DNA of 34,084 nt from Candidatus Synechococcus spongiarum LMB bulk15M (GTDB lineage Bacteria > Cyanobacteriota > Cyanobacteriia > PCC-6307 > Cyanobiaceae), in the NCBI GenBank assembly GCA_002018045.1, contig MWLD01000022.1, positions 1 to 34,084 on the forward strand. Direction: 5' to 3'. Both the position numbers and the translations under genes were made by a program. Shown piece after piece: positions 28,169 to 34,084 of this stretch (the stretch's first letter is position 1; every line of letters starts with the position of its first letter). The notes beneath the pieces are model-generated. The model was not told the origin of the DNA and ran no database searches. It was given only the letters and a program-made list of their open reading frames with translations.

Positions 28169-29567
<1,399 letters not shown>

Positions 29568-29575
<8 letters not shown>

Positions 29576-30299
29576 GGAGAGGAGGGGATGTCGTTGGCGG
29601 CCACCAGCTTGCCATGCCACTACTGCGCCACACCTGATCCAGCACACCCGGATCCGTCCCACGGAGACGGGGCACATGGCCCAGGAGGCGGGTGCGACCC
29701 ATGTGGGGGAGCACCGTGGCGTTATCGGCAAAGCCGTCCCCGTTGAGCACCAGGCCCAACACCGGGATGCGGCGCCTGCGCAGGGCCTCCAGACTCAGCA
29801 AGGTGTGGTTGATGGTGCCCAGCCCGGCCCGGGCTACCAACACCACCGGCAAGCCCCATTCCCCCATCACGTCAATCTGCAGCAGGTGGCGGGTGACAGG
29901 CACCAGCAGACCCCCTGCCAACTCCACCACCAGCGCCCTGTGCTCCTCGTCTTCCGGTGGCCAGAGGCGCTGACGCTCCAGAACGATTCCCTCCTGCTCG
30001 GCGGCCCAGTGGGGAGAGGCGGGGTGTTGGAGGCCGTAAGCCTCCGGCACAATGGCGCTGCTGGAGCAACCACTGAGTTTCTGCACCTGCTCACTGTCGC
30101 TGGGCTCGGAACTCAGAGGCGGCAAGCCGGCCTGGATGGGCTTCCAATAGCGGGCCGCCAATGCCCGCACCAGCAAGGCTGAAATCACGGTCTTGCCCAC
30201 CCCCGTATCGGTGCCAGCCACCACCAGCCGTCGTGGCAGCGCCATGGCGGTGGCGGCATCTGGTGGCTGGGGTTGAGGTGTGGTGGCTGGCAGCATCAT
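29568..30299 (-). CDS. bioD: ATP-dependent dethiobiotin synthetase
   Basis: It forms the ureido ring of dethiobiotin, the penultimate step of biotin synthesis. A 243-aa P-loop protein with VVAGTDTGVGKTVISALLVRAL, YWKPIQAGL, PEAYGLQHPASPHWAAEQE, LVVELAGGLLVPV and VVLVARAGLGTINHTLLSLEAL, LGLVLNG. A second ATG follows immediately after the first. It precedes fumC on the same strand with an 8-bp overlap. No other biotin gene is seen in this window. Confidence 0.93.
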
Positions 30300-30428
30300 G
30301 GGGCAATAATAATTATTAAAGTCTTCCTATGCTGAACCATGGAGCCGTGGCGGCACTGCAACCGCTGGAGGCCTGGGGGCAAGGACTTGCGTGTCCTCAA
30401 TGGGGTTACATGGCCATTACATGATCTA

Positions 30429-30476: not shown

Positions 30477-33320
30477 ATGGCTTACACACCACCACAGACC
30501 TGGCATCAGTGGGATACCCAAGTATGGAATCAACAGCTCTTGTGGTTCTGTTTCGTGGATGATGCAGATGCTCCGCCGCATCAAGGTCTGCGCGCTTCAG
30601 AAGAACAGCTTTGTGAAGTAACAGGAGATGATCAAAGCAACCCACGAACCATGGCAGAAAAAATGATACAAGCACTTAAGCGGCAGGCACAGTTGCGAAA
30701 TCGTAGACCAGACGACTTTGTGCTGAATCATCAGATGAAGCATTACACACCCTCAGCGCTGGAAGAACCTCCGTTCTTCGCTTTCCTTTGGCTTACCTGC
30801 CTCATTGCCCACGGTTACCCGGACCCTGATCAGAAGGGAAAGTTTCATGCCCGCTATGAAGCAGCTTTTGGTCATCAGGATCACCAGGGGCTCAAGCTTT
30901 TGACTAAAGCCTGGCAAAAACTTAGCGAGTGGCTTGCCATAGAAGGAATCTTTGAAGGCAAACGGCACCGGCAATTAGAGCTACCTCCAATAGATGATTA
31001 CCGCAGAAAAATCTCTCATTCCTGGCGGCTAGCTTTTCCGCGCTTGGCAGACTATCGTTTGCTACAGCAGCTCCTTAGTCGTCTGCGACAACGCCATGAA
31101 TGGCATCTGAAGGCCAACTCCCCGCAGTTAATTAGCCGTCTTCTTTCTGAAGCAGAGTTCAGCTCTGACTTCAGAAACGAGCTCACGCGATGGAAACAAG
31201 CACTGAATAAGAACCCTGATGATGAAACCTGGTTCAGCTCATTTCTAGGTCGGGTCATTCAGGATCTCCAAAAAGCCACATCTAACCAGACCAGCAACAA
31301 CAATCGGCAGATCGCTGGATCGAGTCCAGTGTTTGGGGCGCTGGTCCTTTGCTCGTATGGTGATGTGCTGGGGGTGCTGCTTCTCGCAGATGGAATTCCC
31401 CAGGCTGAGCGGGATGGCTGGCATGAGGAGCCTGGTGATGAGTGGTGTGAGAAGTTGAGTGAACATCCTTTACTGATTCCCAACACGGCGGACCCTCAGT
31501 ACGCTGCTTTTGAAGGGGGTAGCCTTGCCACTGACCTTGAGGAATCCTCAATCACCGGGCTTCGTCCCCTAATTAATCAGGGGTTGCTGTTATTTGGACT
31601 GGATCCCGCCATCGATTGTCCGCGATTGCTGCCGAGCCCTTCAGCGGAGCAAAGGCCAAGTCATGTAGTCATGCGTGAAGAGAGCAGTGAGGCTTTCCTT
31701 AAGCAATTTGGTGGAACAGAAATTGACAATTTCGACCTTGAGCAGGACGGATGGACCTGCATCAGGGATTTTGAGGCGACTGCCAGGCAACTCGAAAGAT
31801 TTGCCACATCTGGTATATCTCCAGATAGTAAAGAGTCGCCTCCAAAACTGACTCTTAGTAAAGGACTCCGAGTTCAAGGTGGTTTCCTGGCAAGGGGACT
31901 GGGCTTGCCCAATGTGCGCGTACAGTTTAGACAGCCAGCACGGGCTATCAAGCTTTTCATCCCTAAAGAAAAGTTCTCAATCGCCTACTTCCCAGACCGA
32001 GACAATCCAGAGATATGGAAACCGCCAGATGACAGCCGTCAGAAAACTGCCTTTCGGGCAGGAGCAGCAAGGCTCGAGGCTTCTTTTGACGACATTCCCA
32101 AACGGGATGTTACCTTTCAATTGGAGTACATCTCCTCTCATGTGCAGCTTAAACGCTCCCAGCTCATTGTTTTTCGAGAAGACTGGGGTTGTAAGCTGGG
32201 GCCTATCTATTTAGAGACGCCTAAGCAATCTAATTTTGACCTGGGTAATGCTTCCGTAAACAAAGCTAAGCAGTTGTTGAGCAATGGGAACTCAGCAGTT
32301 AACCCACAGTTTGAACGTCAGATACTTGACGCACTCTGTGCAGTATTCCAACGTCGTCCGCGCATCAAGCGACGGGAATTTCAGCAACTCTATCGCCAAC
32401 TAGGTGGGATGTCCTCTGAGTGGCCACTGTTTTACGAAGGCCTACTGCGAGCCTGGTGTGAAGGGGGTTGGCTTGAGGAGGGACTAGACCGGAATGGGGA
32501 GTGGAGTCTGCAGCCTATTGATCCCCGTCTAGTGCAAACAAGTCCGATAGGGGTGCAAGTGGTCGGCCTACTGTCCGTTGCAGGTTTGGAGAAGTTGCTG
32601 GCCCTTGCCAAAGAATTTGAGGAGGTGATGGAAGTCGACCCCGTAGCACCAGCCTGTCCTTGGCTGCCTCGCGGCTGGCGTTTTCGTGGGCATGAGGTGG
32701 TAAACTTGCTGGCTGAGTTTAGTGGTCTGCCGTTGGTGGCTCAGGAGGACTGGGTGGAATTGCCTGTGAACTTGGATGGGATCCCGCCTTGGGTGGTAGT
32801 CCCCAAGACATGCGACGCTCCGGATTGGCCCCGATCTGCCAGAGATCCCTCCTTCCACGAGGAACGGCTTTGTGGAATCCGAGAGAACAGTCACCTGGAC
32901 TACTCTCAGCCTCCAGAGCAGCATTGTCAGTATGATGTCAAGGCCAGCCCTAGCAAAGCAGTGATTCACCGGGAGCACAGGTTCGGGCGAACTCGATGGC
33001 ACAGTCCTGATGATGGACATGGCCCGTTCGTGTCCTGTCATCGCAACCGTGCTGCACTGCACAGCATCCATGGTGCCAGTGACGGACTCTGGCCCTTTGG
33101 CTTCCCTGATCGGCAGAAGCCACTGATCGAGCGTTTCTACGATGCTGATGCCTACTTGCCCCTACCGATTGGCCGCTTTGCAGCTCTGAAGGGGCGGCAA
33201 CTACCAGGTCCTACACTGCCATCCCGCCGGGAGCAGCACACCTATTCCTACTGGCTTGATAAAGGCACAGGTGATAAGATCCGAGACCAGGCTGAAATCC
33301 CCTTGATCAACCTCATCTAG
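30477..33320 (+). CDS. Large protein of unknown function, first gene of a helicase-linked unit
   Basis: 947 aa, not recognised. Residues about 1-320 look mostly helical and charged, with many Trp, Gln and Arg (WHQWDTQVWNQQLLWFCF; FFAFLWLTCLIAHGYPDPDQ; WRLAFPRLADYRLLQQLLSRLRQRH). About 455-590 look beta-rich (KGLRVQGGFLARGLGLPNVRVQF ... LEYISSHVQLKRSQLIVFRE). About 620-690 resemble a winged helix (RRPRIKRREFQQLYRQLGGM ... FYEGLLRAWCEGGWLEEGLD ... GEWSLQP). The C-terminus holds His/Cys-rich text and a DGLWPFGFPDRQKPLIERF segment. No signal peptide, membrane helix or P-loop is seen. Composition is lower in GC than bioD next door. The helicase gene follows 5 bp after the stop, so they form an operon. 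In Druantia type III a large unknown protein (DruH) precedes a DUF1998-type helicase (DruE); this could be a distant version or something else. Confidence 0.85.
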   Translation: MAYTPPQTWHQWDTQVWNQQLLWFCFVDDADAPPHQGLRASEEQLCEVTGDDQSNPRTMAEKMIQALKRQAQLRNRRPDDFVLNHQMKHYTPSALEEPPFFAFLWLTCLIAHGYPDPDQKGKFHARYEAAFGHQDHQGLKLLTKAWQKLSEWLAIEGIFEGKRHRQLELPPIDDYRRKISHSWRLAFPRLADYRLLQQLLSRLRQRHEWHLKANSPQLISRLLSEAEFSSDFRNELTRWKQALNKNPDDETWFSSFLGRVIQDLQKATSNQTSNNNRQIAGSSPVFGALVLCSYGDVLGVLLLADGIPQAERDGWHEEPGDEWCEKLSEHPLLIPNTADPQYAAFEGGSLATDLEESSITGLRPLINQGLLLFGLDPAIDCPRLLPSPSAEQRPSHVVMREESSEAFLKQFGGTEIDNFDLEQDGWTCIRDFEATARQLERFATSGISPDSKESPPKLTLSKGLRVQGGFLARGLGLPNVRVQFRQPARAIKLFIPKEKFSIAYFPDRDNPEIWKPPDDSRQKTAFRAGAARLEASFDDIPKRDVTFQLEYISSHVQLKRSQLIVFREDWGCKLGPIYLETPKQSNFDLGNASVNKAKQLLSNGNSAVNPQFERQILDALCAVFQRRPRIKRREFQQLYRQLGGMSSEWPLFYEGLLRAWCEGGWLEEGLDRNGEWSLQPIDPRLVQTSPIGVQVVGLLSVAGLEKLLALAKEFEEVMEVDPVAPACPWLPRGWRFRGHEVVNLLAEFSGLPLVAQEDWVELPVNLDGIPPWVVVPKTCDAPDWPRSARDPSFHEERLCGIRENSHLDYSQPPEQHCQYDVKASPSKAVIHREHRFGRTRWHSPDDGHGPFVSCHRNRAALHSIHGASDGLWPFGFPDRQKPLIERFYDADAYLPLPIGRFAALKGRQLPGPTLPSRREQHTYSYWLDKGTGDKIRDQAEIPLINLI

Positions 33321-33325
33321 TCCCC

Positions 33326-34084
33326 ATGCATGATCCCATTGGCGCCTTCTCCCGCATCCGTGCCTTCTATCTCAGCTACCTGGACACAGCTTCCAGGCTT
33401 GAGCCAGCAGACATTAGGGAAGATCGCCGAAAATTGCTCATGAAGACAGGTACGCTCTGTACCAGTCCATTGCTTGAGCCGCTGCCCTCCTGGGAGACAG
33501 ATGGGCGCAGCTTTGAGGATCTTGTGAGCGAGGAAGGGGAAGATGCGGTTCTGGCAAGCTTATCGCCAAAAGCACGGCGTGCCTTTGTTGACCTGATCGG
33601 TTGCGGTCTCATTGACCGTGATGAGCATGGAGCTCTCCATCGTCCCTACGGTCATCAGGTAACAATGCTGAAACGGGGGTTGCGTGATGGTCAAGCTGGC
33701 ATCGTCACCTCTGGAACAGGGTCAGGAAAAACTGAGGCCTTCCTGCTGCCAATTCTGGCATCAATCATTGAGGAAGCCACCCGCGATAAGGGGGGGTGGC
33801 CAAAGCCAAAGTCTGGTTATCTCAGCCTCGAGAATCGCTGGTGGCGTGGCCAGGATGGTCAGCCCATGGCAAAGCGAAATCACCAAGGGGAGTATGAGCT
33901 TAAAGAGGACATTAAAAAAGGCCTTAACTGGGATGATTACACAGGTTACGAACAAAGGCACAATGAGCAACGTCCTGCGGCCATCCGTGCCCTCATTCTC
34001 TATCCCATGAATGCTTTGGTGGAAGATCAGATGACTCGTCTACGTATGGCATTGGATTCTCAAAATGCCCGGGATGCCCTTGAC
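33326..34084 (+). CDS. Superfamily 2 DEAD/DEAH-type helicase, N-terminal part; continues beyond the window
   Basis: 253 codons are visible from ATG at 33326. After an N-terminal section (MHDPIGAFSRIRAFYLSYLD ... LCTSPLLEPLPSWETDGRSFEDL) come the helicase elements. LHRPYGHQVTMLKRGLRDGQ is a Q-motif-like region, motif I is GIVTSGTGSGKTEAF (P-loop residues 130-136), and motif Ia is ALILYPMNALVEDQMTRLR (from about 222). About 75 residues between motifs I and Ia hold a Trp-rich insert (ENRWWRGQDGQ ... LNWDDYTGYEQRH). The form 'TGSGKTExFLLP ... LYPMNALVEDQ' is typical of very large helicases with a C-terminal DUF1998 (MZB) domain found in defence islands (Druantia DruE, DISARM DrmA and related). 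The C-terminal part needed to prove this lies outside the window. Confidence 0.9.
   Translation, partial: MHDPIGAFSRIRAFYLSYLDTASRLEPADIREDRRKLLMKTGTLCTSPLLEPLPSWETDGRSFEDLVSEEGEDAVLASLSPKARRAFVDLIGCGLIDRDEHGALHRPYGHQVTMLKRGLRDGQAGIVTSGTGSGKTEAFLLPILASIIEEATRDKGGWPKPKSGYLSLENRWWRGQDGQPMAKRNHQGEYELKEDIKKGLNWDDYTGYEQRHNEQRPAAIRALILYPMNALVEDQMTRLRMALDSQNARDALD

Follow-up and report, generated by a model that had tools for sequence, protein, structure and literature searches.

Two adjacent genes at the right-hand end of a contig of genome G000 probably constitute a reduced Druantia system for antiphage defence that belongs to the type II lineage, in which a divergent druF and a druE occur without druM and druG; DruE would engage DNA, and DruF would serve in recognition or licensing. 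Because DruM and DruG, the components that define type II, are absent at the locus, the pair is regarded as a reduced member of this lineage rather than as a canonical type II system. The window, i.e., the whole stretch of DNA analysed, measures 34,084 bp and spans all of contig C55 of an assembly of 1.5 Mb (74% complete), so that the cut in druE is the end of the assembly. The relevant features, each with the evidence on which it is based, are the following:

28169..29731, minus strand: fumC (class II fumarase-like), conserved left flank; translation read by eye, adjoins bioD in congeners.
29568..30299, minus strand: bioD (dethiobiotin synthase-like), conserved left neighbour; translation read by eye, synteny.
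30329..30400, plus strand: type IIG restriction-modification gene, decayed remnant of its 5′ end, in the bioD–druF interval; similarity to the IIG start in the congener G391.
30477..33320, plus strand: druF-like gene (divergent DruF), 947 aa, ATG start, stop codon within the coordinates; PADLOC DruF2 models, hhalign, G391 relative, dN/dS.
30477..31304, plus strand: DruF N-terminal domain, residues 1–276; PADLOC PDLC00019/18/22, match to a Rubrobacter plasmid DruF, hhalign.
31305..33317, plus strand: DruF C-terminal part of the Cyanobiaceae kind, residues 277–947; matches in G189 and G330, hhalign with shuffled null.
33326..34084, plus strand: druE (DruE2), first 253 aa of a helicase of ~2150 aa, stopped by the contig end; PDLC00014, G391 relative, 9wae.

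The two-gene layout described in a first-pass annotation of this DNA was found as stated: the 947-aa ORF is followed, after a gap of 5 bp, by a helicase ORF that opens with an ATG and whose 253 aa contain GTGSGKT (Walker A) and LYPMNALVEDQ. The lower GC content that had been noted relative to the left flank is likewise apparent (0.52–0.55 over 30–34 kb versus 0.58–0.66 over 19–30 kb). A second low-GC stretch, unmentioned before, lies at 14–19 kb; GC falls to 0.33 within 15001–16000, where no long ORF is present except the end of a 161-aa one. Further to the left, at 380–2410 on the minus strand, a repetitive acidic 676-aa protein is encoded that appears Calx-beta-like by eye. No remainder of druE could be found on the other G000 contigs, the only match being a different, YprA-like helicase on contig C45. 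This contig harbors a second defence-like locus (L009, 2650–13095), in which a YprA/DruE-like helicase appears as two ORFs, of 481 and 1359 aa, and thus contains a frameshift or is split. Also encoded there are a DpdE-type SNF2 helicase (E = 1.8e-191) and part of an N6-methylase, and the locus is possibly ARMADA-like.

The 947-aa protein had been described as unrecognised and as either a new family or a distant DruH. The first description stands for general libraries, since nothing above the cut-off was obtained in Pfam and NCBIfam; it does not stand for PADLOC, the DruF2 models of which match residues 1–276 with a best E of 2.6e-19. A match to DUF445 (E 0.0024, below the cut-off) was set aside as a match of a helical region. 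The N part shares 35.5% identity with the N half of a Rubrobacter plasmid DruF. Relatives of the C part were at first found only in Cyanobiaceae, as ORFs of 856 and 863 aa in G189 and G330 with 37–38% identity and no PADLOC match, and a DruF–DruG fusion was considered because the C part first looked unrelated to DruF. This candidate was rejected on the basis of profile comparison: neither part aligns with DruG in hhalign (E ~0.4), and for the C part an E of 0.41 with DruG compares with 1.2e-14 with DruF.

When nine DruF rows were aligned with eight Cyanobiaceae rows in hhalign, the N part matched DruF with E 3.1e-19, and the C part proved colinear with residues 314–838 of canonical DruF over 506 columns (score 126.9), at an identity of ~16% in the profile alignment. 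The highest score among 30 column-shuffled profiles was 26.6, and the reversed profile scored 15.8. An earlier comparison with just four DruF rows had yielded E 0.0015, and it was the larger number of rows that settled the match. A linking form exists in G595, where coiled-coil-like, DruF N and DruF C parts are combined in one 1098-aa protein encoded near DruE and a DruM-like gene. From the alignments of both parts, the shuffled null, and the linking form it follows that the 947-aa protein is, by profile comparison, a strongly diverged DruF along its whole length.

Close relatives of the window DruF were absent from viral contigs and from phage records; a plasmid search returned a single match, confined to the N-terminal part, and a scan of the genome contig collection returned only the remnant on L012 described below. 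No solved structure related to DruF was found, and an AlphaFold2 model built from a two-row alignment reached a pLDDT of 30. Winged-helix-like stretches can be discerned by eye in the C part, a feature that would suit DNA binding.

The window portion of the helicase matches positions 1–223 of 1928 in the PADLOC DruE2 profile PDLC00014 (E 1.4e-82) as well as the solved helicase 9wae (E 1.6e-51), and is, judged by its profile match, a DruE2. The complete DruE of G391 (2147 aa, L022:10460–16900) scores 1700 bits with DruE2 as opposed to 1144 with DruE4 and 282 with DruE3, and carries DELH and QRVGRAGR in addition to conserved CxxC pairs. Among solved proteins it again most resembles 9wae (E 2e-292), which is named just "Helicase" in its record and which we infer to be a type II DruE. 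A C-terminal Zn module of the MZB/DUF1998 type, anticipated for the full helicase by the first-pass annotation, may be present in the G391 relative, which has a conserved CxxC pair and matches MZB PF09369 below the cut-off (E 0.0063); the window copy stops at residue 253. In a phylogenetic tree that did not include DruE1 and DruE3, the Cyanobiaceae DruE proteins group in a single clade (SH-aLRT 100) that lies on the side of type II; the type IV DruE encoded on plasmids of Nostoc, Oscillatoria, and Calothrix fall apart from it, and the type II set minus the Cyanobiaceae is weakly supported (27). The window row fills 11% of the columns, yet it pairs with G391 at 100.

These data speak to the proposal that the genes belong to Druantia type III, or make up a III-like pair, the 947-aa protein being a distant DruH; in light of them this proposal is extremely improbable. 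The arrangement of two genes, a large unknown protein plus DruE, is indeed that of type III (PMC13192584). However, DruF2 is the only family listed for the 947-aa protein in the PADLOC scan up to E 10, with DruH not matched, profile comparison places the protein in DruF, and DruE falls on the type II side of a tree lacking the DruE3 lineage and scores far higher with DruE2 than with DruE3. The suggested kinship with DruH and Druantia III is therefore not supported, and the protein does not represent a new family either. In contrast, the suggestion of a candidate antiviral system was upheld in that the PADLOC matches within the window and the DruE2 match in G391 point to a system of Druantia type.

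The complete locus in G391 has the same gene order, with a druF of 940 aa (75% identical over its full length) and druE. Together with purifying selection on both genes (dN/dS between G000 and G391 of 0.32 for druF and 0.17 for druE), this relative shows that druF and druE are real genes. DruF evolves faster than DruE, and the same has been reported for DruH relative to DruE (PMC13192584). Might the pair nevertheless be a decaying, non-functional Druantia remnant? The partners DruM and DruG are lacking, the contig end cuts the window copy short, and related copies are either reduced to a stub of 62 aa at the same site (G387/L012) or broken by one TAG (G631), so that the system is often lost. 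Yet neither ORF is interrupted over the length available, the dN/dS values against the complete G391 copy are low, and intact DruF-like and DruE genes occur in several other genera, so that decay is an unlikely account of the pair.

Among 400 Cyanobiaceae genomes, the DruF C part and DruE2 (E ≤ 1e-75) were found in the identical nine (G000, G391, G189, G330, G430, G527, G566, G595, and G631), a co-occurrence to which a simple probability does not apply because these genomes are related. Five more pass E 1e-60 by virtue of a different helicase that matches DruE2 weakly. The two genes are adjacent in G000, G391, G631, and G566, adjacent but convergent in G430, within 3 kb of each other in G595, 9–10 kb apart in G189 and G330, and on separate contigs in G527. 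In four genomes (G189, G330, G430, and G527) the N domain of DruF is replaced by a coiled-coil-like module, and two small genes of that kind are found upstream; these proteins share the C part of the window DruF and, where tested, their DruE falls in the same clade. Paired small genes of the coiled-coil-like kind, the same as those preceding the fused DruF in G189 and G330, also occur without Druantia (L068, 9901–10772, in G463; L069, 5037–6781 and 11756–12603, in G530), and in G530 such a pair adjoins hsdM. The homologues of the window DruF sit alongside DruE2 and at a restriction/defence site, so that the defensive role first proposed withstands the refuting observations named in the first-pass annotation, although with respect to the C-terminal Zn module only weakly.

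With respect to the missing partners, no DruM cytosine methylase is present in the G391 locus, where DruM-like methylases reside on other contigs, and none was detected anywhere in G000, G189, or G330 at E ≤ 0.001; for G000 this is weak evidence owing to the 74% completeness of the assembly. In G391, no gene that might be DruG separates druF from druE or directly adjoins the two, and a home-made profile, a weak probe for a diverged DruG, gave no match in the Cyanobiaceae loci. A separate DruL gene is likewise absent from the G391 locus.

The last point is relevant to type IV as defined by PADLOC (DruE, DruF, and DruL; PMC8565338). The same proteins are hit by models of DruL and by those of long DruF, and in a long DruF the N half aligns with DruF4 and the C half with DruL. 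This suggests that PADLOC DruL is a split-off C half of DruF and reduces the type IV parts list to DruF and DruE. In long DruF proteins, the C-terminal half was seen to correspond to DruL4 (L028 9132–9992, L032 8686–10011, and L095 3187–6228). The pair in the window could accordingly be a type IV system in which a single protein unites DruF and DruL, and its gene content would agree, as DruM and DruG are absent, as they are in type IV, and DruL4 corresponds to the C half of a long DruF. Nevertheless, the DruE and DruF sequences are of the type II kind (DruF2 rather than DruF4 models; DruE2 well ahead of DruE4), the type IV systems of other cyanobacteria lie on the opposite side of the DruE tree, and a direct comparison of the Cyanobiaceae DruF C part with DruL was not significant (E 0.077). 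Assignment to type IV is therefore quite unlikely.

The reduced type II pair resides at a site with a history of its own. BioD is present in nine of the ten genomes of the genus; beside it lies a type IIG restriction-modification gene in G388, G389, G390, and G393, a decayed IIG in G392, the Dru pair in G000 and G391, and just the first 62 aa of DruF in G387 (the same contig sequence as L012). The site is thus a restriction/defence hotspot in the genus. In the window, the IIG remnant upstream of druF reads MLNHGAVAALQ..., compared with MLNQGAVTALQ at the intact start; its 77-bp alignment with the beginning of the G391 IIG gene shows 77.9% identity (E 1e-9). A 47-bp counterpart exists in G387, and a faint trace can be seen by eye in the G391 spacer upstream of druF. 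Since a complete IIG gene follows druE in G391, these remnants indicate that the Dru pair was probably inserted at the start of an IIG gene. Synonymous divergence between G000 and G391 is similar for druF (dS 0.45), the available part of druE (0.43), fumC (0.42), and bioD (0.39), so the pair probably predates the split of these genomes.

In G391 the IIG gene begins 12 bp past druE in the same direction, and the canonical system includes the cytosine methylase DruM, which raises the possibility of a three-gene operon, druF-druE-IIG, with the IIG methyltransferase as self-marker in place of DruM. Several observations make this very unlikely. The IIG gene stands alone at the same site in four congeners, and in the window its remnant precedes druF, so that the Dru and IIG genes probably became neighbours by insertion. 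Moreover, G631 and G595 possess Dru genes without any relative of the G391 IIG, which by its Pfam domains is an N6-adenine type enzyme.

Canonical type II loci follow the order DruM, DruF, DruG, DruE on plasmids of Rhizobium (with one extra gene after the methylase), Agrobacterium, Sinorhizobium, and a second Agrobacterium. A viral-collection contig, IMGVR_UViG_3300037046_000297 (L059/L070), carries the whole set beside genes that appear phage tail-like by eye. With type II the reduced pair shares a DruE2-type helicase, the placement of DruF ahead of DruE, and tight spacing; it differs in lacking DruM and DruG at the locus and in its highly diverged DruF C part. Type III resembles it in consisting of two genes, a large variable protein and DruE, but employs DruH instead of DruF, and its DruE is reported to contain PLD nuclease domains, whereas the C-terminal Vsr-like nuclease of type II DruE is predicted to be inactive (Bell et al., PMC12458937).

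By analogy with its relatives, DruE, a YprA/MrfA-family SF2 helicase, would be loaded onto invading DNA, at 3′ single-stranded tails or at replication intermediates, and block its replication. DruF would be the variable component, recognising the invader or licensing DruE, as has been proposed for DruH in type III. In that type, DruE binds 3′-tailed DNA and DruH is likely the sensor (PMC13192584); circularization and replication of phage DNA are reported to be stopped by DruH–DruE (PMC13316683). Given the predicted inactivity of the type II nuclease, the pair may block rather than cut, or use a host or partner nuclease. In G391, the IIG enzyme encoded downstream may act alongside it.

DruF is almost unstudied, types II and IV are without a worked-out mechanism in the literature surveyed, and no activity test for any DruF was found there, DruF and DruE being named together in one paper. 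We tentatively propose that Druantia II and IV have DruF and DruE as their self-sufficient core, with DruM, DruG, and DruL either dispensable or pieces of DruF; the cyanobacterial pair might then defend although no methylase marks self, and it would distinguish phage from self by the structure of the DNA or through a product of the phage that is sensed by DruF. If DruL is indeed a C half of DruF that has been split off, the parts lists of the two types would become one. The comparison also suggests that detection tools miss Cyanobiaceae DruF proteins that lack the N domain, for which PADLOC gives no match. As a natural two-gene unit, DruF–DruE would offer the smallest system for studying the function of DruF and the need for a methylase.
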